DNA from: Paracamarosporium sp. OC-R06-R3 | Lineage: Eukaryota > Ascomycota > Dothideomycetes > Pleosporales > Didymosphaeriaceae | NCBI GenBank assembly: GCA_019828545.1 | Contig: JACVRA010000404.1 | Location: 1-61,593, forward strand | Length of the DNA: 61,593 bases | Reading direction: 5' to 3' | In this document: positions 25,546-61,593 of the stretch, piece by piece | Position numbering within the stretch: the stretch's first letter is position 1 | Layout of the letters: each line of letters begins with the position of its first letter | Translations under genes and position numbers: made by a program | Notes under the pieces: generated by a model | Databases searched by the model: none | The model's input: the letters and a program-made list of their open reading frames with translations, nothing else | Told to the model about the DNA's origin: nothing

Positions 25546-26841
25546 CTAGGTATTGATATACTCAGAGCAGACCACATCTCCATGTAGGTCCATGACATCT
25601 CCAATTGTGACATTGGGAGAGAGCTCCGCCATGTACAGCCTGTGATTCAACGTAGTCACATTACCGTTATCGCCGAAGTATTTCGTAAACTCAGGACCCG
25701 TGCCACCAAGTGTAGAACCTGCATATCAATTTTCAGCTACTGCACCATCGTTACTAAATTGGCATTAGATAGCGTTGCTTACCTCCTACGGGTACGTTTG
25801 GGCCTCCAATGTCGGTATAGCGGGCTGGTAGGTCTCTTTTCTGCCACTCCCAGAAGAGCTTATCGAGCCAGGCGTGGTGTAGATAAAAGACCGGGTCTCC
25901 TGGCGATAGAGTAGCATCGCCCATCTACAAAACAGACAAGTCAGCATCGAGATATCTACACTATTTAACAATTGGGAAGGATGCGAAAGTGATATCTTAC
26001 AGCACCCCCGACGGCAGCATGACCGGCAGCATGGGGTCCGGAACTACCGCTCGGCACGCCGAACCAACAAACCCATGCGTCAGTGTAATTCTCGATCGCG
26101 TTGCATTTGTCAATGTTTTTCTGATTCGTCATTTGTAGATCGGCCGTACTAAACTGGCGGGTCAAGCAGTGGCTCTCGACGTTACCATCGCGGGTCCAAC
26201 GAAGTGTCAAGTTCCGGAAGGGGCCGGTCTCGACACATCCGCCCGGACCTGTCCCATCACCCCCAAAATACTCGTCTTTCCACAGTTCAGAAGCCGTCAT
26301 GTCCGCGATGTCGTGGAGCTCGTCCCAGTAGCTGATAGCCATGTTAGATGTAAAGTTAAGCTTTGAATATGGAACGCATACGGCATCCGGCCAGTGTATC
26401 CGCACTCATCCCTGATCAGTCGCTCGTGGGCAGTCAAGTAATATCGGTGAAATGGTAAGAATGCGCCCTGGGACTCTCTATCAGAAAAGCAACGGTCATT
26501 ACAGGAACAAAGTTCGCCTTACGACGCCGTGCACGGTCGCAGATTGTATTACGTGCGGCCATTGCAGGTCGTCCCATCGGGTGACAGCACGAGGATTCCC
26601 AGACTTAGCCGGCGAGTTCATCAGACAGAGGTCGGCCTTGATATAAGAATTTTTCTCGCGGCGCGTTAGGTTATACCTAGAATCAATCCATCAATCAACC
26701 GACACTATGGTCATCAATGATATGTGATTCTGACCATGGCACCCGCTGTCGAACCTCGCTGCAAAGAGATGCGTCCGCAACGCCAGAACTTGTAAAGATA
26801 GTCAAACCTACAGCAAGGATAAACAAGGCTTGCGATATCAT
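25546..26841 (-). CDS. secreted tyrosinase (type-3 copper oxidase)
   Basis: Oxidises phenols or catechols with a dinuclear copper centre. Six exons (26841-26735, 26676-26523, 26467-26382, 26331-26001, 25924-25783, 25718-25546) give 330 residues ending ...VCSEYINT, with no stop or frameshift. A signal peptide (MISQALFILAVGLTIFTSSGVADA) sends it out of the cell. Copper-A histidines fit WPH, TVHG and FLPFHRYYL; the last motif has Phe where tyrosinases usually have Trp (PWHR). Copper-B histidines fit GPHAAGHAAVGG and the SPGDPVFYLHHAWLDKLFWEWQ helix. The ECGYTGRMPYWDEL and EYFGGDGTGPGGCVETGPF motifs are typical of short fungal secreted tyrosinases, which lack the C-terminal lid domain, as here. 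Introns are 54-76 bp with CTAAC/CTGAC branch sites. It may act on a polyketide or aromatic product of the locus, but this is inference. Confidence 0.88.
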
Positions 26842-33064: not shown

Positions 33065-34021
33065 TTATGGCGATAGATGCTTGGCAAATATTGGTGCGAA
33101 AAGTTCAGGTCGATTGTAGTGTCCTGCCAGATCATGTGTGTATTTGCCCAGAATCGCGTCCCGTACTTCTACAGTCGCATACAATATCTCTTCTTCAGGT
33201 GATAACGGCCCTGCGATGATATTTCCATTTGGCCCAAGGATGGTCGCACGTGGTTTCTTTTGTTCTTGTCGCAGAAACTCCTTGGTACTGTCATCGTCGC
33301 CGTAGGCGGCTATAGCATCATCGCCAACCAGGCCAACACTGTTGATTAAGAAGCACTTGAGCGCATAGGCTAGCCCTCGTGTTGCATTGAGGATGCAATC
33401 GTGCATATCAGCTCCTGGAGTGAAATGTGGGGGCCACGACGCAACATGCACCAAAGGGTAGGACATGCCTAGTGCATACGTAGCAAGGTGGTTCACATTC
33501 TCGCCACAGATTAAGCCGCTGAGCGTGCCAAGATCTTCGGTTTTAGTATAAGCTATGGCACCCGTTGTGCCAGGGCCGTGAATGAGGCGTTCTGCTAGGG
33601 TGGGTACGTATTTCTGATGTTTGCATAACAGCGTTCCGTCACGGCCAAATATTAGCTGCGTATTATAAGTGGTTCCGGTTGTTCCTGACCGTCGCTCGTT
33701 GATTCCGACAATAGCGTATATTCCCGCGTTGCGACATGCGTTTCCAATGGCTTGAGTTTCCGGTCCTGGAACCTCGACCGAATTGTCCCAAAGTTGTAAG
33801 TACAACGAATGTGCTCTGCTGAGATCCACGGGCAAAAGTTCGATCCAGCCCGGGTAGCCGGGTATGATGCATTCTGGGAAGCCAATAATATCGGCGCCGG
33901 ACTCTCCAGCTTCGCGGATCAGGCGACATACTTTCTCGCTTGTGGCTTGTTTGTCCAGAAAGACCGGTGCCATCTGAACAGCTGCCAGCTTCAGATGCTG
34001 TGCTGATGCTGGCGTCATCAT
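33065..34021 (-). CDS. nitrilase (carbon-nitrogen hydrolase)
   Basis: Hydrolyses organic nitriles to acids and ammonia, or to amides in some members. Single exon, 318 residues, close to the family norm of 310-350. The Glu-Lys-Cys triad is visible: Glu50 in GFPECIIPGYPGW, Lys137 in KHQKYVPTLAERL, and Cys171 in SGLICGENVNHLA, followed by the usual HVASWPPHF and LGPNGNIIAGPL motifs. Residues after about 295 (GHYNRPELFAP) match the conserved C-terminal exit helix. There is no signal peptide, so cytosolic. It is divergently transcribed from an MFS carrier across a 328-bp intergenic gap, so they may share control. The gene is intact. In this context it may detoxify or process a nitrile or amide metabolite. 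Confidence 0.92.
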   Translation of the reverse strand: MMTPASAQHLKLAAVQMAPVFLDKQATSEKVCRLIREAGESGADIIGFPECIIPGYPGWIELLPVDLSRAHSLYLQLWDNSVEVPGPETQAIGNACRNAGIYAIVGINERRSGTTGTTYNTQLIFGRDGTLLCKHQKYVPTLAERLIHGPGTTGAIAYTKTEDLGTLSGLICGENVNHLATYALGMSYPLVHVASWPPHFTPGADMHDCILNATRGLAYALKCFLINSVGLVGDDAIAAYGDDDSTKEFLRQEQKKPRATILGPNGNIIAGPLSPEEEILYATVEVRDAILGKYTHDLAGHYNRPELFAPIFAKHLSP

Positions 34022-34349
34022 TGTTGTATTCGAAGAGATTCTTGGGAATCAATGCACTCTATGAAGAGCAAGCTTTGTGGTTGCAACGTAGTAGTGCAAT
34101 TCAAGTGACGCTCGTTACCTATTATCGGGTGAAACGCCAAGCCGACCAATCCATTTCAGCCGCAAATCTCGCCCGTGTCTCGGCCGTCTTACTAAATATT
34201 CATATTGGATAGACATCATTTACGTAACCCGGCACTTCAACCTTGCGCAAAACAAAATCATCATTAAAGACTCAATCATGAAAAGATTTTCCTCACATCT
34301 TAAGATCATTTTCTGCCATACCAATCCCTGACTTTCATCGCTTTCATAT
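34022..34349. promoter_or_regulatory. shared divergent promoter region (nitrilase / MFS)
   Basis: A 328-bp gap between two divergent ATGs must contain both promoters. No consensus operator can be named; a CCG-containing CCGACCAATCC string lies near 34143 and a CGG-less flank follows. Co-regulation is inferred from geometry only. Confidence 0.4.
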
Positions 34350-35795
34350 ATGGATATGACCTCAGCTCCATCGATGGACGCCACAACGGAGAACCAGACA
34401 CAGGACCTTCAAAGCAAGCCTGACGGCGGCTACGGTTGGGTGTGTGTTTTGAGTGTTTTCTTGATAAACGCGCACACTTGGGGTCTTAATGCTGTAAGTC
34501 GAGAACTTCCGACTGCCTCCTACGAGACTAGATTGATCAACTCTGCAAATAGGCTTACGCTGTTTTTCTTGAATTCTATTTACATTCAGGTGCTCTTCCT
34601 GATGCAACACCTGTGCAATTCGCCTACATTGGTGGTCTCAGTATCTCTGTAGCCTTTCTTGTTAGCCCGATTGTGTCCAAGCTTTCAAGTGCCTACAGCA
34701 CCCGGTTGATACTTGGTGTCGGCGTCGTGATCGAGGCTATGTCGTTCATTGCAGCGTCTTTTGCAACGCGCACGTGGCACCTCTTTCTCACTCAAGGCCT
34801 TTGTTTCGGATTAGGAATGGGCTTCCTCTACGTAGGAACGGTTGGAATATTGCCGTCATGGTTCGACAGACGCAGTGGCCTAGCGAACGCCTTAGCCTCA
34901 GGAGGCTCTGGAATTGGAGGATTGTCCTACTCACTGGCAGCTAACCAGCTCATCAGGCAGCTCGGCTCTCCTATGACACTGCGAATCCTGGGGATAATTG
35001 CGGCTATCGTGAACGGTCTGTCGGTCCTCTTGCTAAAGGACAAGCGACTCAAAACATCCCTCGCTGTTGGCTCTGGACAGGCTTCTGAGCTCATGCTGGT
35101 ACTACGACAACCATCTATGTTGTTCTTCATTACATATACTGTGTGCAGCATCCTCGGATATGTGGTACTACTCTTTTCGCTTCCCAGCTTTGCTAGTAGC
35201 ATTGGATTGTCTTCCGCACAAGGATCAACGGCGGGGGCACTATTGAGTTTGGGACAGTTGGTTGGTCGTCCTACGATTGGATATCTGTGCGATAGATTCG
35301 ACAGGCTACTCGTCACTAGCACCTCATCAATTGTCGCTAGTGTGTTATGTCTGCTTATGTGGACGCTTACCAATTCTTTTGGTGTTCTTATCACGTTCAG
35401 CATTCTTGTTGGTCTTGTTGCGTAAGTTATTACGTGTTTCCTCGCGTAGCCAGGTTCACTCGTAGATTGGAATGTAAATTCGGCTAATACCAAGGGCAAA
35501 GTGGCACTCTCTTTGCCGTTGTGGCTCCGATCTTGGTGGACATCGTCGGGTTGGAACAGCTATCTTCGGCTTTGAACTTGACCTGGTTGATACTTGTGAT
35601 ACCCGCCACATGTAAGTCCGATGCTTGCCAACTACCAACTGAAGCTATCTGACATCTCTAGTTTCAGAAGCGATTGCCCTCTATATTACGAACATTAATG
35701 GGGGAAGTTTCTTCGGAGCGAAGATGTTCGCAGGTTTTGCATATCTCATTGCTGCTGTAGCTATCATGTGCATCTATATTACAGTAAACCGATAG
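34350..35795 (+). CDS. MFS monocarboxylate transporter-like protein
   Basis: Twelve-helix plasma-membrane carrier of the monocarboxylate porter type. Four exons (34350-34493, 34553-35421, 35502-35611, 35662-35795) give 418 residues. The N-terminal PDGGYGWVCVLSVFLINAHTWG signature of the family is intact. Exon 2 begins AYAVFLEFYL and continues PVQFAYIGGLSISVAFLVSP, the LGMGFLYVGTVGILPSWF motif, and GQLVGRPTIGYLCDRFDR between helices 8 and 9. Exons 3 and 4 supply the last two helices and end in ITVNR. All introns have GT-AG ends. It is paired head-to-head with the nitrilase and has a paralogue at 38526-40128 with the same intron positions. The substrate is probably a carboxylate or pathway product; not established. 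Confidence 0.9.
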
Positions 35796-38525: not shown

Positions 38526-40128
38526 TTATGCTCTGCACCAACGCAATAACCCCTTGAAGACATTGCGAGTCCAAGGTCCCTCAATGGTACCAGGTATGTG
38601 TTCTGGCGACAAATCTTGTCCCTCTACTGGCGCGGTCACGGATACTTTCCAAGCTCGCAGAACCCAACAAGCAGCGGCAGAGGCGAAAAATGCAAATCCA
38701 GCGAACAACTGCGCGTCTAGATACTGATTACCATGCACCAGCTCGCGCGCAATAACTGGTGAAACTAGGTTTTATCAAGATCAGGCAAAGGTCCATAAAA
38801 GGGCAGTCGATCTTCTACTTACATGTGGTGGGCGGTACCAATATGATAAAAATCATTGCTAAACCATCAGGGAGTAGCTTTAAGCCGAGAACCTCGACCG
38901 AGACAGGGCCGATAACCGACCAGAACGATCCACTCGGAATATAGTTATCTTTTTGTATAACGAACGTGTGAGTAGCGTGTAGATAGACTTACGCGAAGGC
39001 TCCAATGAAGATAGCGTAGATAATCAATTGTCCGTACGACGTTGCGGTAGTCCAAATGATTAAGGTGACAAGACCTGCGCAGAACGTAGCTCCCGTAGCA
39101 ACATTGAGTCGACCACAATAGTCGCTAAGACATCCGATAACTGTGCGTCCAATGATCTGACCCAAAGCAACCATGGAACCTATGACTGAGGCTTCAAGGA
39201 GTGTGAGTCCAAGAACAGACGAACCGTAGGCAGGAATCTGTGTCAGGATGATTATCTCGCCCAACATGTTGAAGAACGAGAAAGCTACGAGGACAAGAAA
39301 ACTTGGCTTGATGAGCAAACCAGCGTTGAAGTAACTGAACGTTGGTTTGATCGTAGCATTGCGATCACGAATGAGAATCGCAGCAACGAAATTGACTGCG
39401 CCTGCCGTTAGAGCCAGGGTACGGATGGACCACTGAATCCCAATGTTATCCAGCATTTGACCGGATGCGATGGAGTAGCAAAGCCCGCCAAGCCCGGTGC
39501 CTGAAGCGGCAAGACCGGTGGCAAGACTTCGCCGACGTTCAAACCACTGAGGAATGGTGTTCATAGTGCCAACGAACAAGAAACCTATCCCCCAGCTGAA
39601 ACCCACTGCCTGGCCTAGATATAGGTGCCAAATGTTGGTTGCGAAAGACGCACCGAGGAGCGATACAGTCTGAAACACAACGCCAATGAGTAGACAGGCA
39701 CGCATGCCCCAGATTCCAATAACCCGGGTGGCTACAGGAGTAATCACGAAGGGCATTGAGAAATTTAGGCCGCCGATGAAGACATAGTGCAGTTGGGATG
39801 CTCCTTCAAGGGTACCATGATCGAGATAATAGGAGAGGAAGGTAGAGTAAGACTTACGATGTATTAGCGAATATATTTTCGATAGGTTCACTCTTTCACA
39901 ACGTACTGTTTGGATTCCCCAAGTGTGTGCATTGATGAGCAGTACGGCGACCACGCAGATCCAGCCATAGGCTTCTTCCTGCACCGCCTCAGTCATAGTG
40001 CCGACGCTGCCAGAAAGTCGACTGGATGATTGGATCGAGCGGCTGGTAAATGCACCGCCAGCAGAACTCTGCTTCTCGTCCAGATGCATGCTGTAAATTG
40101 GTCCAATTGGAAGATCGCATTCGGGCAT
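38526..40128 (-). CDS. MFS monocarboxylate transporter-like protein, second copy
   Basis: Twelve-helix carrier, four exons (40128-39907, 39852-38993, 38932-38823, 38755-38526) giving 473 residues; an in-frame ATG at 40173 would add 15. The amino end is longer than in the first copy, and the family signature reads AYGWICVVAVLLINAHTWG. Other motifs are YVFIGGLNFSMPFVITP, WGIGFLFVGTMNTIPQWF and GQIIGRTVIGCLSDYCGR. The C-terminal tail after the last helix is hydrophilic. All three introns fall at the same codon positions and phases as in the 34350 copy, so they are paralogues. The gene lies close upstream of no partner and is separated from the Zn2Cys6 gene by about 550 bp. Confidence 0.88.
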
Positions 40129-40648
40129 AGTCGTATTGCGGTGCACTTCTTGATCTTGCCATAGCAACTGCACGGTATAGTCGCTATTTGTATGTAGAAA
40201 TGTAAACGCAATGTTGCTGGTTCAAAGGAACAAGTAACGTCTACACGGCCGAGTTTCGGGCGTGACTTACACTAGCTTATCGTCGTTATCGTCGTTATCA
40301 GTGTAATGTAGTATCGTGTTAGCCTAGTATCTAACTTGTATAATAGGACGAAGAATGGTTAGTAGTAGGAATAGCCATCCGATATTAGAAAAAGCTTTTT
40401 CACCTAAGTTATACAGATATAGTAACCTGACCTAAGTCTCGGCTTCGCACGTGATCCCTGTAGCGATACCCTCTAGCTGTGCCGCTGGTCGAAGTAAGAT
40501 CTTCTGACACAAAACAAGTTTGGCGTTCAGATCTGCGCCTCATTGGGCCAATGCTCAGCGAGGCGCCCATCAACGTCAGTGTTGTGCTGTGCCGCATTTC
40601 AATGTCAGCTTATGAAAAACAGCAGAACCTGCCAGGCACCCACAAGGA
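40129..40648. other. intergenic, divergent promoters
   Basis: Between the second transporter (minus) and the DUF7730 gene (plus). It contains a direct repeat CGTCGTTAT twice in tandem near 40276-40297. No gene seen. Confidence 0.35.
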
Positions 40649-42242: not shown

Positions 42243-42491
42243 ATGCTATACGGGCCTCTAGCGCTCCTTCGTGTAGGGGGTTTGACCTATCAATTAATAG
42301 AGACGTATCTTTAAACCCTCCGTACGTGGCCTCAATCGAACTATCTTGTAGATCTCCGATTGGTAAAAGGTCGGAAAGAGTACCCAAAAGGTCCGTGAAG
42401 GGTGATGTAGCTTCTAAAAGCTGAAGAAAAGACACTAGAGAACCATACTGGGGAGAGTACTGTATAAGGGAAGATAGTCCTGTGGCTTGAA

Positions 42492-42566
42492 GTGATTGTT
42501 TCGACCTCACGGCGAAGTGATGGTCTCAACTTTACGGCGAAGTGATGATTTCGACTTCACGGCGAA
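42492..42566. repeat. 3 x 25-bp tandem repeat
   Basis: Three adjacent 25-bp units, each starting GTGAT and ending ACGGCGAA, with about 80-90 percent identity. Most differences are transitions. Confidence 0.85.
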
Positions 42567-43256
42567 GCAATCTAACTGCGGCGTTGGCCACTAACTCTGA
42601 AGCTCATTTGCCAGCGATACATTGCAACGAAGAGTTTCCAAACCCACCCATGTCGATATTGCGTATATCCGAGTATTGAGAGTACTAATCATGACGCCTG
42701 GTAGACGCACTGATGTCCCATGTCTGCCTTATTATATTCGTGGCTCTTCCATGCTTGTGTTGAGAGAGGACCCCCCAGCCGTGAGACGTATATTTAAAAG
42801 CCTTGTCTCTGTGATATATCTAAATCCCTTTTCAAAATTGCTCCAAACTGTTCAACATATCTATCTGGAACACCAATCATCACCTAAGGTTTCATAATTT
42901 TGTTTATTGCTGCTATGGTGGCCTACTCTATATACTTCTTTCTCGTCTATCTCTCTTTCCTACGTTGCTTTGCTTACGGAAATGGATGGTACCTAGATGA
43001 ATCCTGTGATTGTATGTCAATTTTGTATCTTTAGGAGCAACCTTACACTGATCAATAAATCCGAAGAGACTTGTTCAAAATAGGCATAGAGCAAGCATTT
43101 CTAATGGCTGAGTCGGCTGTAGAGGCAATAGGTACCCCATAAGATCAGCCGGGGAGAGCCGTTAAATGGGTGTTCCCGGAAGAAGAAACAAGAGATATGG
43201 CTGCTTATATTTTTAGAACTGCGTTTGAAGTAATGATCTTAATAAGCTTTTACCTA

Positions 43257-43287
<31 letters not shown>

Positions 43288-43288
43288 A
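43257..43288. repeat. (TAAA)8 microsatellite
   Basis: Eight perfect TAAA copies directly adjoining the telomere-like motif. Confidence 0.9.
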
Positions 43289-43305
43289 CCTAACCCTAAC
43301 CCTAG
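43289..43305. repeat. interstitial telomeric repeat
   Basis: CCTAACCCTAACCCTAG is nearly three copies of CCCTAA, the complement of the TTAGGG telomere unit of filamentous ascomycetes, lying far from either window end. Confidence 0.8.
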
Positions 43306-43496
43306 TCTATTATTATTAATTAAGCGATACCTAGGCAGCCTCGTAATATCATGTGCCAGATGTCTAACATAACACTTAAAATTGAAATCTATTGCAGTCA
43401 AAATACCCCTATATAAGCCCTTCTATCCACTAGGCTAGAAGTGTTCACTTTTGCCGAATTTTTCTACTCCAACAAAATCTTAGTCGTTAAAGAACA

Positions 43497-45083
43497 TCAA
43501 GCTTTCCTATCCTGTTCGTTTTCGGTGCTTCTGATAGCGACCTCAAGCTCTCCTATGAACTGCCAAACATCCTCGAATGTGTTGTACAATGGCGCTGGTG
43601 TTACGCGCATTATATCAGGTCTGCGCGCATCCAAGATGACACCGCGATCTCGGAGGTGCTTTAGAACAAGCTCCATTATTTCCGGGCTGCGCCATCTGAG
43701 ACTCAACATGGCGCCTCGCTGCGTCGAATCCTGTGGCGTAATCATTGTCCATAGGCTCCTTTTTGCGTCTGTGTACGACTTTTTGGCCAAGTTGTCGAGG
43801 AGGGACTCAAGATAGGTGGTTAGACTGCGGGACTTCTCTATTACCTTGGCAATCCCGACTTCTTTGAATACTCGCAGAGACTCAGTTACCGCCGTGATGT
43901 CAAGGATCGAGGGGCTCGACGTTTTGAATCCAGCAGCGCCGGCTTCGGGCGTGAAACCTATCAATCCGACGTATCAGCGTGCCCTGCTCTGCTAATTGAT
44001 CATCAGAGGGGAGACTTACATTTTTCCATCTCAAATCGCCTCGACGCTGGGACGCCCCACCACCCTGCAAGACGTCGTCGATGTCCATCCCTACCATGAC
44101 GTTCATGGACGAAAATCCCCGCCGTAGCACCTGGCCCCCCGTTGAGATATTTGTACGAGCACCATACCGCGAAGTCGACATCCCATTCGTGTAGTTTCAT
44201 CTCAACATTGCCAACTGCGTGGGCAAGATCCCATCCCACAATGACTCCCCACTTGTGCGCAAACGCTGTTATCGTCGCTATGTCTAGGAGCTGGCCAGTA
44301 TGGAACTGTACTCCCGACAGTATCACCACTCCAATGTCGCTCGCGAACGATTCGATTGTGCTGCAGATAGTGGTAGTCGAGAGCAGACCATCTTTGTCTA
44401 CTGGGATGGATATCAGCTCCACATCGGGGTCGAGGCCATGCGACTCTATGTGGGACCGAATTGCATACTGCGATTTTGTAATTAGCAGTGTGGAGATCTG
44501 TAGCAGCACATTAGTCGCTGACATGATCGGTTGCAAAAGCATCTTCCTCGAGCAGTATTCGCGTTCCTCGCTTGGCTGTTTTATCGGGCTGATAAAAGCT
44601 TGCCAAAATCAGGTGGAGATTGGTCGTCAAGCAATTCATCAACGTGACCTCGTTTTCCAAGGCGCCTACGATTGGCGCTAGTAGGCTGGCCGCTATCTGT
44701 TCAGCTTCCAGCCACGAGGGGGATTCTCCGGGTCCGGACTTGTACCCAGATATGAGCGCTCGCTTGGCCCACTGGTTAAGAAACGCAGTGGTTCGTGTCG
44801 CTGTTGCAGTGGGTTGCAGGCCGATTGAAGAGCCGGCTAAGTATACGACTGGCTCGTGATCCCCTTCGCCAGCACATGTCACTATTATTCCGGCTGGACT
44901 CTGGTGGGTGTGGATCTCACCTGAGGCTATGTATATGTCTGATTTCCGGGGAATCCAGAATTCGCTTCGCAGCCTCCGAAGCGGATCTATGCGATCCATG
45001 TGCAGAGCGTAATCTTTACACGTCACGGGAATACTCGAAGCATCGACGTCGTTAGACGCTACAGAAGTAATAACAGATTCCAT
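43497..45083 (-). CDS. kynureninase (PLP-dependent L-kynurenine hydrolase)
   Basis: Cleaves L-kynurenine to anthranilate, or 3-hydroxykynurenine to 3-hydroxyanthranilate, plus alanine. Three exons (45083-44523, 44467-44020, 43957-43497) give 489 residues. Landmarks in order: LHMDRIDPLRRLRSEFWIP, YLAGSSIGLQP, LMNCLTTNLHLILASFY, EEDAFATDHYAI across intron 1, ILSGVQFHTGQLLDI, GWDLAHAVGNVEMKLHEWDVD, and SYKYLNGGPG holding the PLP lysine (about residue 293). GAAGFKTSSPSIL comes next, then a C-terminal RGVILDARRPDIMRVTPAPLYN. All family motifs are present and there is no stop. Compared with family members it carries an extra segment near residues 50-70 (SGEIHTHQSPAG and following). The start ATG is 15 bp from the PKS stop and in its frame. 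The gene may feed anthranilate-type units into the PKS pathway, or be a relocated primary-metabolism copy. Confidence 0.92.
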
Positions 45084-45098
45084 GTTTACAATGCCGCA

Positions 45099-48000
45099 CT
45101 ACGTACTCAGATACCGGCGAAGTGCCTCTGCAACATTCGTGACCTACACGTCCTGTTAGCGCCCGAGTTTTGATTATTCAGCAGATAACACTTACGGACG
45201 TTCCGTCATCAGGGAGAAATGGTTCCCATCCACGGACACTACGCTGATTGCTTCTTTCGAAACCAACCTGTCCCATCCAAAGAAGTCCGGCCCGACCTCA
45301 ACACGATCATCAAGCACCCAATCCAGGACTTTTTTCTCCTGTGCGCTCATAGTCGGCCGCGTAACCGTCTAATGGCGGTCCACCCCGTGTCTTGCTGCTA
45401 TAAGTAAGACCTTCAGTGCGCAGCCATCTGGTATCGGTAAATGGACATAGCCATGCAATGCCTCCAGCGTCGCGATCACATGCGGGTCTCGCATTTTCTT
45501 GGTAGAATTTGCCGATTGCCCGTTTGATGTCGCGTCTGAACTGCCGGTCCCTTTGAAGCGATCGATGTTGTCGAAAAAGTCTAGCAGGGAGAACGGGAAT
45601 GGGGGGAAGAGTGCTGGGCAGGCCGAGTCTAGGAGTATCAGCGAGCGAACATGTTCGCCGCGCGCGATCAGTTGGCGTGCAGCTTCGTAAGCCATCACGC
45701 CCCCTACCGAGTACCCCATAAGAGTATAGGGGCCATGGGGTTGTTGGCGTTGTATCTCGGAAACGTATTAGGCAACAAGATCAGACAGAGATACGTCGAA
45801 TGCTAATGGCGTCTTCAGAAACGGACTGTTCAGGCCAAATATAAGTATGGAGGGGCTTAAGGTCGGCAGAGGTGTGTATGTGGACGCTGTGCCAAAGCCA
45901 CCGGGGAACGCAAAACAAGTCGTTGTTGCGGTCTCTGGGCTCCCCTGAAGAACCACGGAAGATGCTCGGAATTCAGGGGTCGTGCAGCGGGTTGCGGCAT
46001 GGGTAGCACACAGAACGCGAATATCGCTGGATTCATCCGAGGCGCCAGACGACCAGCCTACAGAGTTAAATCCCGCCGCCTGAAGCTTCCGGTCCCACTC
46101 CCGCTCGCCTATCAAGGCATGGGTGCGCCCGTCTGTGAATGCCCACCAGCCTTCAAGGAGCCCGAATACAAGGTCGTACCATCCCATGCGGCGGGTTAAC
46201 TCAATGAGCCCTAAGAAGCCACCCGTTCTTAAGAGCGATCGGATGTTCCTGCAGGACTCTACTACATCGCGAGTTGCATGTATGCAATTTGCAGATATGA
46301 CTGTGTGAAATTTCGCTTGCAGCTCTCTCGGCGTCGCCTGCTCGATATCCAAAACTTGAAACTGCATTCCCTGGATGTCTTTGAACTTCCGCTTGGCCTT
46401 GTTAACGAGCGAGGGCGATACATCCGTAAAGGTATATGTGAAGCTGATCTTTGCCCGCGCCAGCTTCTGCACGAGATGTCGTGTAGTTCCGCCGGTTCCC
46501 GCGCCTACCTTGAGAATGTGCAGCGTTTTACCAGGATACGCCGCGACGAAGATACGGATGATAACGTCGGCGAGGAGATCCGTCGCCGTCTTGAATATAG
46601 GTACGTTGCTGTACACATCCTCGAGGAGATCCCGGTTCGTTTTTGTGCCGAAGAGGATATCCACCGCGTTAACTTCTTCACGGAGACAGCCTGCTAGCTG
46701 GCTTCCAACAGCTTTTAGGAGCATAAGCTCTCGGGCGAAACTCGGGAATTGGGTTGTGATGGACTTGTGGAGTGCAGCGGCGGAGTCTGCCTCTACCGGT
46801 TTCTCCGTTCGGAAGTAGTCCTTGCCTTCTTTTTTATAAGCATAGCCAAGCTCTTCGAGAACTTCGAGAATACGTTCGACTAAGCGGTCATGTCACGGGT
46901 GGTGGGCAGGTACGGGTATTTGTGTAGCAGGCGGGAGCGCAGATAAAGAACAGCCCAGCGTTGCGAATGCCTCCAGGATATATGCCGCAATGAGTCGACT
47001 ATGCCACGGGAATACCTCGTTCTAGAACCCATTATATCCACTCCGCTCGCTATAGATGTCGAACTGCTGAGCTGTGCTGTCGAACATGGCCAGAAAATTA
47101 ACGTTTGAAGGTGTATTGTTTGTTGCGATTTTGATCACGGATGAATGCGGAATCAGTTGAGAGATAGAGCTTGCAGAGGAACTAAGGGGTTGCGATGAGC
47201 CTGATCCGTTACTCTCCGACTGTGGGGGCCCAAAAAGACGTGTGGACAAAGCGTGGATACTCGAAAAGATTTGCAGCTCAGCCGTTGATATTGTGAAGTC
47301 AAAACATTCTTGAATAGTGTTCGCTAGTTCGGTGATCATCAGTGAATCAATTCCGAGATCTTCAAATGAAGTGTCGGCGTGCAACTCCTCTGTAGGAACA
47401 CCCAACAGGTCGCTGAACATTTCGATCAACATACTGACGTCTCGGGAACGTTTGTCTGTGTAAGCATTACCGGCGTCCAGATCCTCTAAAGCCACTGTCG
47501 AAAGATTCCCATCCGGCGATTTCCGTGTTGCTGGTATGTCGAAACTTTGCTGAATCTCCGGCATTACCTCTGTTTCCGGTTGTTCGGCTGCTTTACCCTT
47601 TTCTCGAGTAAGCGAACCAGTAAGAGATTTGATGGGAACTCGTGAGAATGAAACGCCCAACAGTGCCATGATCAAGACATTTGTGTTCGAATCGAGAACA
47701 AAGATGTCCCTTATAACGTGCGTTTTGTTAACTGTAAAGGACTTGGTATACACCACCCATGTTGCTTTTGTGGAGCTCTGCTCGGCCACGACGGCAAAAC
47801 GCTCTATCTGGTTGGCAATGAATATTTCGTCCCGCAGTGGTTCTTGCAGATAGTTGACATGGAGCCCAGCGACTTGGAGAAAATTGTCAATGACTATCGG
47901 CCCGAGACGACCGTGATCGTAATCAAGGAGGTCGAGAGACGGCAATTCTATGCAGGCGACAGCTTCGCGGCCCAATGACGCGATTCTCTTAACGCCACGA

Positions 48001-50856
48001 TACAATGGCCCATAAGTAACTGCTCGCTAGAAAAGCGTGTAGACGACAGATCCAGCTAGTGAGTGTGCGTTCGGATCTGCTAACAGTTTCTTGCAAACTC
48101 TGAGGTCGAGTAGCCGGTCGAAACAAGCAGCTAAGCCCCTAAGATGCACTTTGTCTCTGGTCAAGAGAAGTACCCGGCCTCTCGCATGTTGAATGGTGGG
48201 TTCTCTCTCTTCACTGCTGGATACATCAAACGCCCATGCGGTCATTTCTGATTCACGTGTAAGTTGTAATTGTATCTTCCGTGATGGTCTGTTGCTAATG
48301 GGCGCAATCATCTCAAGATGCTGTACTTCTACGTTCATCTCAGGGACCATTGACATAGTGTCTTCGGAGGCAAGGTAAAGAGCTCCCTGGGTTGCAATAT
48401 CGATATATACTGAAGCTGGGCATAAGGGGATCCCAATCACAGCGTGACCCTGTAGCAGAGTGCGAAAAGAAGATGCGGAAGTGTCGATTGCGAGGGTGGC
48501 TTTCCCCAAAGCTGAATCGTCTGAGCATACAAAGGAGCAGTACCGCCATTGCTTGGGTACGTCCCCAACTGGTGATTTCGCGTCGGTCCTTCCGCTGTAA
48601 TCCAGCCAGTGAGAGTGCGCTTCAAAAGCATATGAGGGGAGGCTGAGGCTTTCGTACTCGTTACGCTGGATGTGGTGGAAGCTCCAGAAACAGTGTTTGT
48701 GGCCCCATCTCCAGAGAGAAGCTGTCGCAGTTGCCAAGTTTCCATGGTCGCTAGCCTTTCCCTCGAGATTGATTGGTTGGAAAGTATCCCCTGTAACATT
48801 TAACTCTTTGAGTACGCGACGCACCATGCTAATAATTGGCGTCCCTGTACCTGCCTCTAGCCAAGTACATGGTCCGAATCGGCCGGCAATTTGCTGAATG
48901 GCATGCGCAAAGTATACTGACGATCGGGTACGCTCAATCGTAGTACTAGTGCTTTCTTTGCAGTCAACAGTATTGTCCTTAGTACACCTAATTATCGGGA
49001 TTTTCGGCTCGAAATAAGCAACTTCGCCCAAAAGTGCCTCATAGGCCGTCAGTATCGGTTCTGCAAGGCGGGAGTGAAATGCATAAGGGATATCCAACCT
49101 GCTACATCGCACTCTGTGTTCAAGCGGTTGAGTGAGCACGATCTCGTCCAGAGCTTGCGTAGAGGCATTGGTTCCAGCGAGAACATAGTTACAAGAGCTG
49201 TTGTAGCAAGCTACATCGACAGTTTCGTTCGGTAGTTGTCGGTTCAACTGTGTGATGATGCAGGACAGCGTCTCGGGTTGTGATTCAAGAGCAACCATCG
49301 CTCCCTTTTCAATGCCCCAATGTGACTCAATTAGTGCTGCTCTTCCTGCTACCACTTTGATAGCATCTTCCAAAGAAATAGCTCCAGCGATGCAAAGCGC
49401 GGTGAAGTGCCCGAAACTGTGACCGAGTACTGCATCTATGCTCACGCCACAGTCTATCCAGCTCTTAGCGGTTGCATATTGGAAAGCAAAGAGAATGCTA
49501 TGCGATTCGATGATGTCCTGGTGGTTTGGAGAATGAATAGCTGGGAACAAACTTTCATATCCTAGACTCTTTAACGCATCATCACAATCGACTAGATGAC
49601 TACGGAATAGTTGATTAGAGTTGACGAATTTCTGTGAAAGCATGGTAGTGCTTCTGCCCTGCCCCCCAAAGACCAACACTAATGGACGAGGTTTTGACGC
49701 GGAGGTTGGCTGAACCGTTGGTGAGCTTGTAACAAGTGAGCCGAGTTTCTGTCGCAGTTCGTCAAGGCTCTTTACATGACACGACAGGACGGATTTCAAG
49801 TCAGGGTTCTGCTTCTTGAAAAGATTGAAAGCCAAGGAAGCAAGTAGTCGAGTATGATCATGCAATGAAGAATGTGTATCGATCCATCCTAAAAGCTCCC
49901 TGCAGTAAGCTGTTAGGCTAGCATACGTGTTTGCGCAGATCAAGACTGGATACCGCTCAAGCTTGCTATGTGTCTCTCGGGGTAAGTCAGGAGGCTGGCA
50001 TATGATGAGCGCACCGTTACAGCCCCCAGCACCATAGTTGTTCACACAAGCGATTTTGGACTATGCCGTCCAATCTTGTGGTTTCTTCGTAAAACTTATG
50101 CGGGACTTGGACAAAGGGGTAATCTTCGGGTTCAGAGAGCTAAATCCAGCTTGGGGCGGGATGGTAGAGTGTCGCATCATCAATAAAACCTTGATGAGCG
50201 AGGCGACGCCAGTAGCACCTTCCGTATGGCCAATGTTATCCTTGAGTGACCCCAGATACAAAAGCTCCTCATGGGCGTGCCTGCTAAACACCTCGCAAAT
50301 GCTTTCCGCCTCGATACAATCCCCTACCTGGGTGCCGGTGCCGTGAGCTTCCACGTACGTTATCGCATTCGCACAGAAATCTGCGCGTTGTAAAACTTTG
50401 TTGAAGAGCTTGACTTGCGAAACTTTACTTGGTATGTTGATGGAAGCCCCTGCTCCATTATAATTCTGGTTGATTGATGTTGCGTCGATCACGCCGTGGA
50501 TGACATCACCGTGAGCCAGAGCGTCTTGCAGGCGCTTGAGCACAACAACACCGGCACCCTCGCCTCTCCAATATCCAGAAGCATCTTTGTTAAACGCCCT
50601 GGAAGCACCATCCTTTTTGAGAAATCCTGCAGCATCGAGGTTCTGGAATTGTACAGGGCTGGTAAGGATATTAACTCCACCTGCAATTACGGCTCTGCAT
50701 TCCTCTCCTGCTAATGCGGAACAGGCTGCATGAATAGCTGCCATTAAAGAAGCACATGCGGTGTTATAAGTAATAGAAGGTGCCTCCCAGCCAAAATGAT
50801 GACTAATACGTCCACTTAGCAGTCCACGCAGAGCATTAAGAATAGAGAACGCCTTA
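45099..50856 (-). pseudogene. non-reducing polyketide synthase (KS-MAT-PT-ACP-CMeT-TE), 5'-truncated, with six in-frame stops
   Basis: Iterative aromatic PKS. Domains in order on the minus strand: partial KS (50856 to about 49990) with TACAS cysteine, VEAHGTGTQVGD histidine and NIGHTEGATG; MAT (about 49690-48760) with GQGRSTT, GHSFGHF serine and YAFHSRL; product template (about 48560-47640) with the GHAVIG histidine and VIDNFLQ aspartate; ACP (about 47470-47230) with GIDSLMI; C-methyltransferase (about 46720-46000) with VGAGTGGTTRHL; thioesterase (about 45950-45100) with GYSVGG and GNHFSLM. Catalytic residues all persist. One frame runs from 50744 to 45369 with stops at 50063-50061 (TAG), 48029-48027 (TAG), 47024-47022 (TAG), 46895-46893 (TGA), 45770-45768 (TAA) and 45371-45369 (TAG), and no frameshift. 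Homology continues across each stop without missing residues, so they are not intronic. The SAT domain and KS start are absent beyond 50856. A small intron likely precedes the last exon (VTNVAEALRRYLST). The order fits CMeT-TE clade PKSs that make methylated orsellinic-type acids; the product is not known. Confidence 0.92.
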
Positions 50857-51860
50857 TGTTTATAAAGTTAGAATATATAAGTAAGGTTAGGAAATTTCTA
50901 GGTATAAAATTTTAGTTTTAATGTGCTAAAATATAGAGTAGAAGTATATAAGTTAAATATACTCTTTTAATTTTTAATTAAAGTTGTAGTTATAAAATTA
51001 TTTACGTTAAAAGTAGTAAAGTACTAAAGTAAAGTCTAAATTAAGTAAAGTGTATAAAATATAAACACTGTATCGGCGCAGGCAGTCAAAGCTCCGGATT
51101 CGGTGTGACTCGGTGCAGAGGCATATGGGAGTGCGTGTAGAGAAATAACCTTGGATGAATTGAATACCTATAGGCCTGGTACGAAAGGATACCGAAAAGC
51201 TACNNNNNNNNNNNNGACGATCATAGCCCCACTGAGCCACTGAGGCCTGATATGATTAGTGAGTCCCAAGCCTTATTACAAACACTAGACTAAAAAAAGT
51301 TATTTTTTAAATTTCTAGCTTATAAATTATTTATATTAGTAATATAAGCTATATAGCTTATAATATACTAAAAAAAAAGCTAAAAAAGTACTTTATAGTT
51401 AAAACTAAAACTAAAGTAAAGTAAAAATATAACTATAAAAAATATTTATATAAAAAAGACTATTTTTTTAATATAAAATATAGTTTAAATTTATTTACTA
51501 TAAGCCTAACTTAACGCAGTAATTAAAATTAAAGCTAAGTTTTTTTTTAAGTAAAATTTATTAAAAATTAAATATTTATACTAGCCTAATTTTTATATAT
51601 ATTTTTTATTATATAGGCTTACTTTAATAAATAGTTATTTATTAGTTTAATTAGATTTTTAGACGCTAATTAATACTAAATTTAAATATTAAATTTAAGA
51701 TAATAAGCTATATATTTTAGCTAATTTATAACTTTAAAAACTATATAGTTATAATTATTAAAGTTAAAAGTTAAAGTTAAAGTAAGCTTAATAAAGTAGT
51801 CAGTTAAATTTCTCCAGCACTTTCTTTCCTCCTATAGCTAGTAACCAGCGCTGCTTTATT
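50857..51860. other. AT-rich block (RIP-like) with an assembly gap
   Basis: About 1 kb of TA-rich sequence without coding capacity that abruptly replaces the 5' part of the PKS. A GC-normal island (about 51060-51260) of unknown origin lies inside and contains the gap 51204-51215. It may be the relic of a transposon that split or deleted the PKS 5' end. Confidence 0.7.
51204..51215. other. 12-base run of N
   Basis: An assembly gap of unknown true size inside the AT-rich block, so the junction between the PKS and the DUF3435 gene may not be complete. Confidence 0.98.
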
Positions 51861-51896: not shown

Positions 51897-51983
51897 TTAC
51901 CCACCCCTCAGGCTACTTACCCACCCCTTAGCCTGCTCACCCACCCCTTAGCCTGCTCACCCACCCCTCAGGCTGCTCACCCC
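51897..51983. repeat. 20-bp tandem repeat, about 4.3 copies
   Basis: Units of the form TYACCCACCCCTYAGSCTRC at 51897, 51917, 51937 and 51957 plus a partial copy. The C-rich strand contrasts with the AT-rich DNA to its left and lies about 350 bp upstream of the DUF3435-like gene start. Confidence 0.85.
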
Positions 51984-59833: not shown

Positions 59834-60429
59834 TAAGCTTGCTCTTCGTGTAAATTGACTTATTCAGCGCACTAGTTGTAAAAATCGCAAAGGAGGAGGA
59901 ACCAAGCACCGTGTTCGAATTACTAACATTTATGTGCAGACTAAGTCTCTTTGGCATCTCAGCTTAAATTACATAGTCTCTATGAACGAGGCGTAGATCC
60001 TAATCGAATAATAACAAATTGTATCCCTTCTCTAGTCTTACAACTGAGCCATCGCCATATAGAGCAAGCCCGTTCTCTGCACTTCTCAAATGTATGCTTA
60101 ACGTTATTATCTTGTCTAAAGGCTCGTTCTGCAGTAACTCTATGCTCTTGTTGGGAGGGAGCTACAGCGCTGTGCTTTGCATAGTAGGCCAACTTGTTGG
60201 CAGAGCGTTTATTGGAGCTTTTTTTCGTATCTCTACCCATGGTCTTGGAGCTGAAGTTGTTTGAAGAGGAGCGATGTATGATCGGAGGAATCTGGCTTTA
60301 TTTAAATGTGGTTTACTACCTCACTTTTTTCAGTCTATCGTACAAATGTCTGTTCTAAAGGCGCGAGCGGATCTTATAGAGCTTACTCTCGGCATTAATC
60401 TTCACATTAAGCCACTATATGAATCGGTG
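59834..60429. other. intergenic, no gene recognised
   Basis: Overlapping frames on both strands (59951-60264) are low complexity or basic and carry no domain. I leave them unassigned. Confidence 0.35.
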
Positions 60430-61593
60430 CTTTGCATATCTTAAATATTTTATAATTATTAAAGTGCTTAATACTAAATAAGCCTATTAGTTAAAGCTAT
60501 TAGCTTTACTTAACTTTTAAATTTAATATACTTTAAATAAGAGTAATGCTTAAGTAAATATCTTAAGCTAATAAAAGTAAAACTTAATAAACTTTAAAGT
60601 AACTTAAAATAATATTTAATTTTATATTTTTTTTAGCCTATATAAATTAGATAGCTAAATTAATTTTAATTTAGCTATAAAATATATAGCTTAGTTAATA
60701 GCTTAAGTTAAAATACTTATATTATTAACTAATAATAATACTATAAGTTTAAATTCTCTAAAGCTAATTAAAGCTTTACTATAAAAAAATTAATTTAGCT
60801 TTTAAAAAGTTTAAAATAGTCTACTATAACAAGGTGCACGGAATATTTAAGCTATATAAATTTTAAATATATTAGAGATAAGGGCTATAAAAAGTACTAT
60901 ACTAACTCTAATCTAAATTAGACTCTTATTAAAAGGATTAAAATATAATACTATTATACCTTTAATATTAATTAGGTTAAAATCTTATAGTACTAAGATT
61001 CTAGCTAGATTAAAATTAAATAATCTTTAATAGGGTTAACTAATTAATCCTTTTTATAATCCCTTAAGGCTACTTTAATAATAACGGCTAATAGGTAGAG
61101 AGTATATATAAAATAGAGGACTCTTAGTAAATTTAATAACTTTTTAGTATCCTTTTATACTAGGCCTATAAATACTTAATTAATTCTTAGTTTACCTCTT
61201 ATTACGTACTCTTATATGCCTCTATTTAGAGTATACCTAGTATAGACCTTTTAAGTAACCTATATTAATATATTATACTAAAAAGCTTACTACTATTAGT
61301 AATGGCTATATAACAATATTACTATAAGACTAAGATAAGCCTACTAGTAGTATACTTATAAATACTTTATAAATAGGATATTAAAAACCTCCTATTAATT
61401 AAAACCTTTAGGTTTAGAATTACTAATTATTGTAACAAGACTGGGGACTAACTAATTATATTAAGCCTTAAGGGCTTAGTTGGGCTATAATTGTTAAGAG
61501 CTTAAACGAGTAGAATCTTGGCAACGTAGATTAAGTCTACCTATATAGCCAGCTCCTAGCTGTAGATAGCTTAGTAGCTTTTCTATATCCTTT
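60430..61593. other. AT-rich RIP-like block
   Basis: TAA/TTA-rich sequence continuing to the window end, no open frame. A GC-richer string (AACAAGGTGCACGGAATA near 60829) may mark the end of a degraded transposon whose other end lies beyond the window. Confidence 0.7.

Follow-up and report, generated by a model that had tools for sequence, protein, structure and literature searches.

In the reaction of kynureninase (EC 3.7.1.3) a PLP-bound alanine equivalent is formed and an aroyl group is released, and an aldol-type use of this PLP-bound intermediate is known in principle. In bacterial clusters of the antimycin and actinomycin type, NRPS or hybrid enzymes obtain anthranilate-type units through a kynureninase. 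Reports on the antimycin and actinomycin clusters suggest that a kynureninase lies within them (PMC5883857, PMC6521150). His-102 and Asn-333 are specificity determinants of kynureninase, and Tyr-226 is an active-site residue, as a further report states (PMC11967295). On the polyketide side, non-reducing PKSs with a C-methyltransferase and a terminal thioesterase or Claisen cyclase, such as Nppks7/MPAS of usnic acid, are arranged as KS-AT-PT-ACP-CMeT followed by the releasing domain (PMC6051580). Among the titles and abstract beginnings covered by our literature search, none names a fungal PKS together with a kynureninase.

The locus described here lies on contig JACVRA010000404.1 of Paracamarosporium sp. 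OC-R06-R3, and the whole stretch analysed, 61,593 nucleotides, is called the window. Its kynureninase-like protein resembles the fungal and human enzymes (EC 3.7.1.3) in its KYNU_C and Aminotran_5 domains, its PLP lysine and its carboxylate-binding arginine, but belongs to a clade with a long stem in which the positions of His102, Tyr226 and Asn333 are replaced. The locus departs from the bacterial clusters in its changed specificity residues and in pairing the kynureninase with an iterative fungal PKS. That PKS is likened to the group of Nppks7/MPAS (PMC6051580) by domain order, but the window copy is broken, lacks a SAT domain and has a kynureninase as its partner. We consider it likely that the locus consists of a decayed non-reducing PKS and a separate gene on the same strand for a diverged kynureninase, an enzyme that would act on another substrate, one from the PKS pathway, the system having decayed in this genome. 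The features are:

51204-51215, no strand: gap of 12 N inside the AT-rich stretch
50853-51860, no strand: AT-rich repeat stretch in place of the PKS 5′ part (GC 0.232, RIP composite index 1.16)
45099-50852, minus strand: relic of a non-reducing PKS with KS (second half), AT, PT, ACP, CMeT and TE (Pfam on separate pieces)
50142-50852, minus strand: KS remnant with TACAS, VEAHGTGT and NIGHTEG motifs (Pfam and motifs)
48855-49676, minus strand: AT domain (PF00698, E 5.4e-23)
47238-47429, minus strand: ACP (PF00550, E 7.9e-16)
46212-46514, minus strand: C-methyltransferase core (PF08242, E 1.7e-16)
45102-45767, minus strand: thioesterase remnant (PF00975, E 3.2e-16 on the first 51 residues; the rest by alignment with P0124)
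45144-45195, minus strand: last PKS intron, 52 bp (GT-AG consensus pair), the final exon being left out of frame
45099-45101, minus strand: TAG, probable natural end of the PKS (sequence and C-termini of relatives)
45084-45098, minus strand: spacer of 15 bp (sequence reading)
44523-45083, minus strand: kynureninase-like exon 1 (sequence reading)
44468-44522, minus strand: intron 1, GT-AG, position shared to the codon with the exon-frame break in the ordinary kynureninase on C213
44020-44467, minus strand: kynureninase-like exon 2 (sequence reading)
43958-44019, minus strand: intron 2, GT-AG (sequence reading)
43497-43957, minus strand: kynureninase-like exon 3, including the TGA stop (489 aa over the three exons)

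On the minus strand the PKS relic ends in EALRRYLST, followed by TAG at 45101-45099, 15 bp and an ATG at 45083-45081, all in one frame and just where the first-pass annotation had placed them. The gene downstream of the gap, which that annotation had called a kynureninase, indeed matches KYNU_C (E 2.8e-21), Aminotran_5 (E 3.6e-15) and human kynureninase (3e9k, E 1.6e-91), and its frame is open over all three exons, 489 aa without a stop. What had been taken for a PKS 3′ end does belong to a non-reducing PKS frame with the thioesterase last, but it is the end of a relic with six further in-frame stops. The shared frame is a one-in-three event and means little alone. The start of the kynureninase is not certain, since a second in-frame ATG at 44999-44997 offers an alternative; the gap would thus be 15 or 99 bp depending on the choice of ATG. 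By sequence context the upstream ATG is the better candidate, with A at -3 (G stands at +4 in both), and the N-terminus of the Dendryphion nanum kynureninase falls between the positions of the two. A promoter of its own would have little space here, which bears out the earlier remark on the lack of promoter space.

The tight in-frame arrangement had been read as a fused or bicistronic PKS-kynureninase. An ancestral gene of this kind, its joint cut by the TAG at 45101, would account for the common frame and a gap of only 15 bp, and one more stop in a PKS with other acquired stops would be unsurprising; yet we regard it as very improbable. Past the thioesterase His motif NHFS, 25 residues follow in the Ophiobolus disseminans PKS, 20 in that of Xylogone and 20 in the window (LMTERP followed by VTNVAEALRRYLST), whereas P0126, a gene call of uncertain splicing, has 39. 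The O. disseminans (2,420 aa) and Xylogone (2,435 aa) PKSs both end near the equivalent place, so that the TAG at 45101-45099 is probably the natural end of the PKS, and its reading as a recent lesion inside a fusion is rejected on the same C-termini; the partial record of the D. nanum PKS contains neither the TE nor the C-terminal part. In D. nanum (460 aa) and O. disseminans (465 aa) the kynureninase is a separate protein. The first-pass annotation had asked for a search for fused NR-PKS and kynureninase, and none of 1,131 candidates sharing words with kynureninase exon 1 scored as a fused protein, the search covering long proteins of about 1,351-4,298 aa (a range set by the 2,456-residue query) and exon 1 only. 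On these grounds the fusion was dropped, the frame also being interrupted by the TAG. Because the PKS frame is broken, a bicistron making a working PKS in this genome is excluded as well. An upstream relic can thus give a narrow in-frame gap the look of a fusion.

The PKS relic is a single frame from 50852 to 45099 that is interrupted by six stops, at 50063-50061, 48029-48027, 47024-47022, 46895-46893, 45770-45768 and 45371-45369, all of them upstream of the TAG. The last intron (45195-45144) is supported by the unspliced gene calls of the relatives P0122, P0125 and P0127, which run out at the same point. The domain set KS-AT-PT-ACP-CMeT-TE is present as pieces (Pfam), but there is no complete KS, no SAT and no open frame, whereas the intact O. 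disseminans relative P0124 has an open frame with SAT, complete KS, AT, PT, ACP, CMeT and TE. Missing from the KS is its first half, and with it the SAT domain; homology to P0123 (D. nanum) and P0124 starts at 50852. The missing 5′ part is absent from the rest of the assembly at high identity, and a move elsewhere in the genome was rejected, the best matches (of more than 60 residues) being other PKSs with at most 48% identity. Of 28 other PKS places matched in the genome, 27 have no internal stop, so that the stops in the window are unlikely to be sequencing errors. The window PKS is a dead gene: its 5′ part is gone at the border with a repeat, six stops interrupt it, and its last intron does not preserve the frame. 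The active-site motifs of KS, AT, ACP and TE are still present, and the decay is therefore probably recent. Among columns invariant in six relatives, the window PKS is changed in 39 of 382, compared with 19 of 438 in each of D. nanum and O. disseminans, 29 of 448 in P0122, 4 of 423 in P0125 and 9 of 428 in P0127, while the more distant P0126 (54 of 473) and P0128 (121 of 540) have higher counts.

The junction between repeat and KS lies in continuous sequence, clear of the 12-N gap. Pieces of 50700-51203 (504 bp searched) recur at no fewer than 41 other sites of the genome, and at least eight of these match the part ending at 50859, which adjoins the KS; the sequence ending there is part of a dispersed repeat. 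This stretch upstream of the KS is RIP-like but the PKS body is not, and heavy RIP of the body was rejected as a source of the stops, its composite index (-0.48) being like that of the neighbouring genes measured. A second AT-rich, RIP-like stretch occurs at 60000-60999 (GC 0.280, composite index 0.70), and tandem repeats are found at 42489-42567 (25 bp, 3.2 copies) and 51899-51982 (20 bp, 4.2 copies).

The three best of 7,975 kynureninase matches come from D. nanum (63% identity), O. disseminans (52%) and Periconia digitata (54%); beyond them, within the best 120, the score drops from 493 to 438 bits and identities are at most 47%. In a tree of 31 rows, 25 of which were chosen from the other 117 of these 120 proteins, the window protein and these three form one clade with a support of 100/100 and a stem of 1.57. 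The two further kynureninases of the genome (C3 and C213) fall outside this clade, beside rows named Dothideomycetes or their genera, with weak support and, for C3, on a long branch. C213 also carries a decayed kynureninase fragment with several stops (about 505733-506351), which scores best against the D. nanum clade protein; no PKS match was found in the 30 kb read around it.

Three active-site or specificity positions are changed in this clade. Of the other 117 proteins among the best 120 matches, all 117 keep the equivalent of human His102, 116 keep that of Tyr226 and again all 117 that of Asn333. In the window, D. nanum, O. disseminans and Periconia, in this order, the His102 position is occupied by G, G, G and A, the Tyr226 position by H, H, H and D, and the Asn333 position by S in all four; in D. 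nanum a His stands one position further on, so that the residue may not be functionally lost there. Tyr226, Phe314 and Asn333 were placed by pairwise alignment with human kynureninase and His102 by its GH motif, the human protein not being among the rows of the multiple alignment. By contrast, all four members retain the equivalents of Asp250, His253, Tyr275, Lys276, Trp305, Phe314 and Arg434. Hence the window protein retains its domains and the PLP-binding residues (Asp250, His253, Tyr275, Lys276 and Arg434), but not the substrate-reading His102 and Asn333 or the active-site Tyr226, which are G, S and H.

Both proteins recur on contigs of matching size in two relatives. D. nanum kynureninase P0001 and PKS P0123 both come from contigs sized 1,450,986 bp, and O. 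disseminans kynureninase P0002 and PKS P0124 from contigs sized 1,728,151 bp, equal size being taken as linkage on the same contig, not as adjacency. Read in this way, the association probably exists beyond this genome, and the pairing looks real and old. For the PKS, the best named relatives, D. nanum (56%) and O. disseminans (46%), rank behind the metagenome protein P0122 (51%). Periconia digitata has the kynureninase but no PKS from a contig of the same size among the 120 PKS matches listed, and Xylogone has the PKS but no kynureninase from such a contig among the 120 kynureninase matches listed. A secondary kynureninase that merely happens to lie beside a PKS, with coincidentally matching contigs in the relatives, would suit the Periconia result and the fact that linkage is read from equal contig size alone. 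We nevertheless think mere chance improbable, since two independent same-contig matches would arise by coincidence with a probability of about 4% each and about 0.2% together (genomes of about 40 Mb assumed), and since the same two species are the best named relatives for both proteins among the matches listed.

Slightly less improbable, but still unlikely, is the recruitment of an ordinary kynureninase for the supply of anthranilate or 3-hydroxyanthranilate to an aromatic pathway, as the first-pass annotation had proposed. The kynureninase fold and PLP residues are kept, and kynureninases in bacterial clusters do have this role. However, none of the four clade members keeps the residues at the His102, Tyr226 and Asn333 positions, two ordinary kynureninases are encoded elsewhere in the genome, and neither a CoA ligase nor an adenylation gene could be recognised among the scanned frames; the first two of these points in particular make such a supply unlikely. 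From the original interpretation there remain the scant promoter room and an association that probably extends to two other genera, while the fusion and the anthranilate supply lack support.

We therefore return to a decayed PKS beside a separate, diverged kynureninase gene. Since the residues reading the aminophenyl ring are lost while the PLP- and carboxylate-binding residues are kept, the enzyme may accept another aroyl group, plausibly the product of the partner PKS. In intact clusters, kynureninase-type PLP chemistry would then be applied to a compound of the PKS pathway and not to kynurenine or 3-hydroxykynurenine, the reaction, at the beta carbon of an aroyl-alanine-like substrate, being either a cleavage or a joining of the aldol type. 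The pathway would have been lost in this genome. More tentatively, and with rather more doubt than conviction, we suggest a fungal biosynthetic pair, present in three or more genera, in which a kynureninase was recruited and reshaped at the positions of His102, Tyr226 and Asn333 to form or cleave a C-C bond on an amino-acid-like intermediate of an aromatic polyketide. No paper covered by our search of titles and abstract beginnings seems to describe such a PLP step for non-reducing PKS pathways. Should the pairing hold in intact relatives, it would point to fungal aromatic compounds of an as yet untested class, along with an enzyme descended from kynureninase that has taken on a new substrate.

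The kynureninase was also compared with the PKS for signs of constraint. Six stops in about 1,830 PKS codons predict about 1.6 stops in the 489 kynureninase codons, and none would be expected about one time in five at this rate. Changes unique to the window, compared with those unique to D. nanum, amount to 19 of 190 versus 8 of 179 in the kynureninase and to 100 of 650 versus 51 of 601 in the PKS; with O. disseminans as outgroup, the window and D. nanum have 39 versus 30 changes in the kynureninase and 158 versus 116 in the PKS. Changes in the window are thus raised about equally in both, and extra constraint on the kynureninase relative to the PKS is not shown by these counts. Of the 119 columns in which 97% or more of the 117 other proteins agree, 23 are changed in the window, 27 in D. 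nanum and 24 in O. disseminans; Periconia is changed at 24 of 114, and one such column is altered in the window alone. Either the kynureninase has outlived the pathway in this genome, or it too is being lost.

A Pfam scan of the window's remaining stop-to-stop frames of at least 110 aa, 36 in all, and of three shorter ones recognised no cytochrome P450, no ligase and no other gene typical of tailoring. The scanned frames include two MFS frames (34553-35422 and 38992-40221), near both of which lies a carbon-nitrogen hydrolase of the nitrilase family (33068-34048, minus strand, E 6.6e-32), as well as a fragment of a fungal transcription factor. A tyrosinase-like fragment is located at 25968-26405 (minus strand, PF00264, E 1.5e-07). 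At the DNA level the genome has no second copy of the locus, the four matches outside the window, 64-76 bp long, being to a short dispersed repeat behind the kynureninase. This repeat (43389-43475, 64-86 bp, four other genomic copies) starts about 22 bp behind the kynureninase stop and holds what we take to be a tRNA-like box A, so that it may be a short retroelement. Also behind the kynureninase, at 43256-43305, a short TTAGGG-type, telomere-like run stands beside a 33-bp run of TTTA units.
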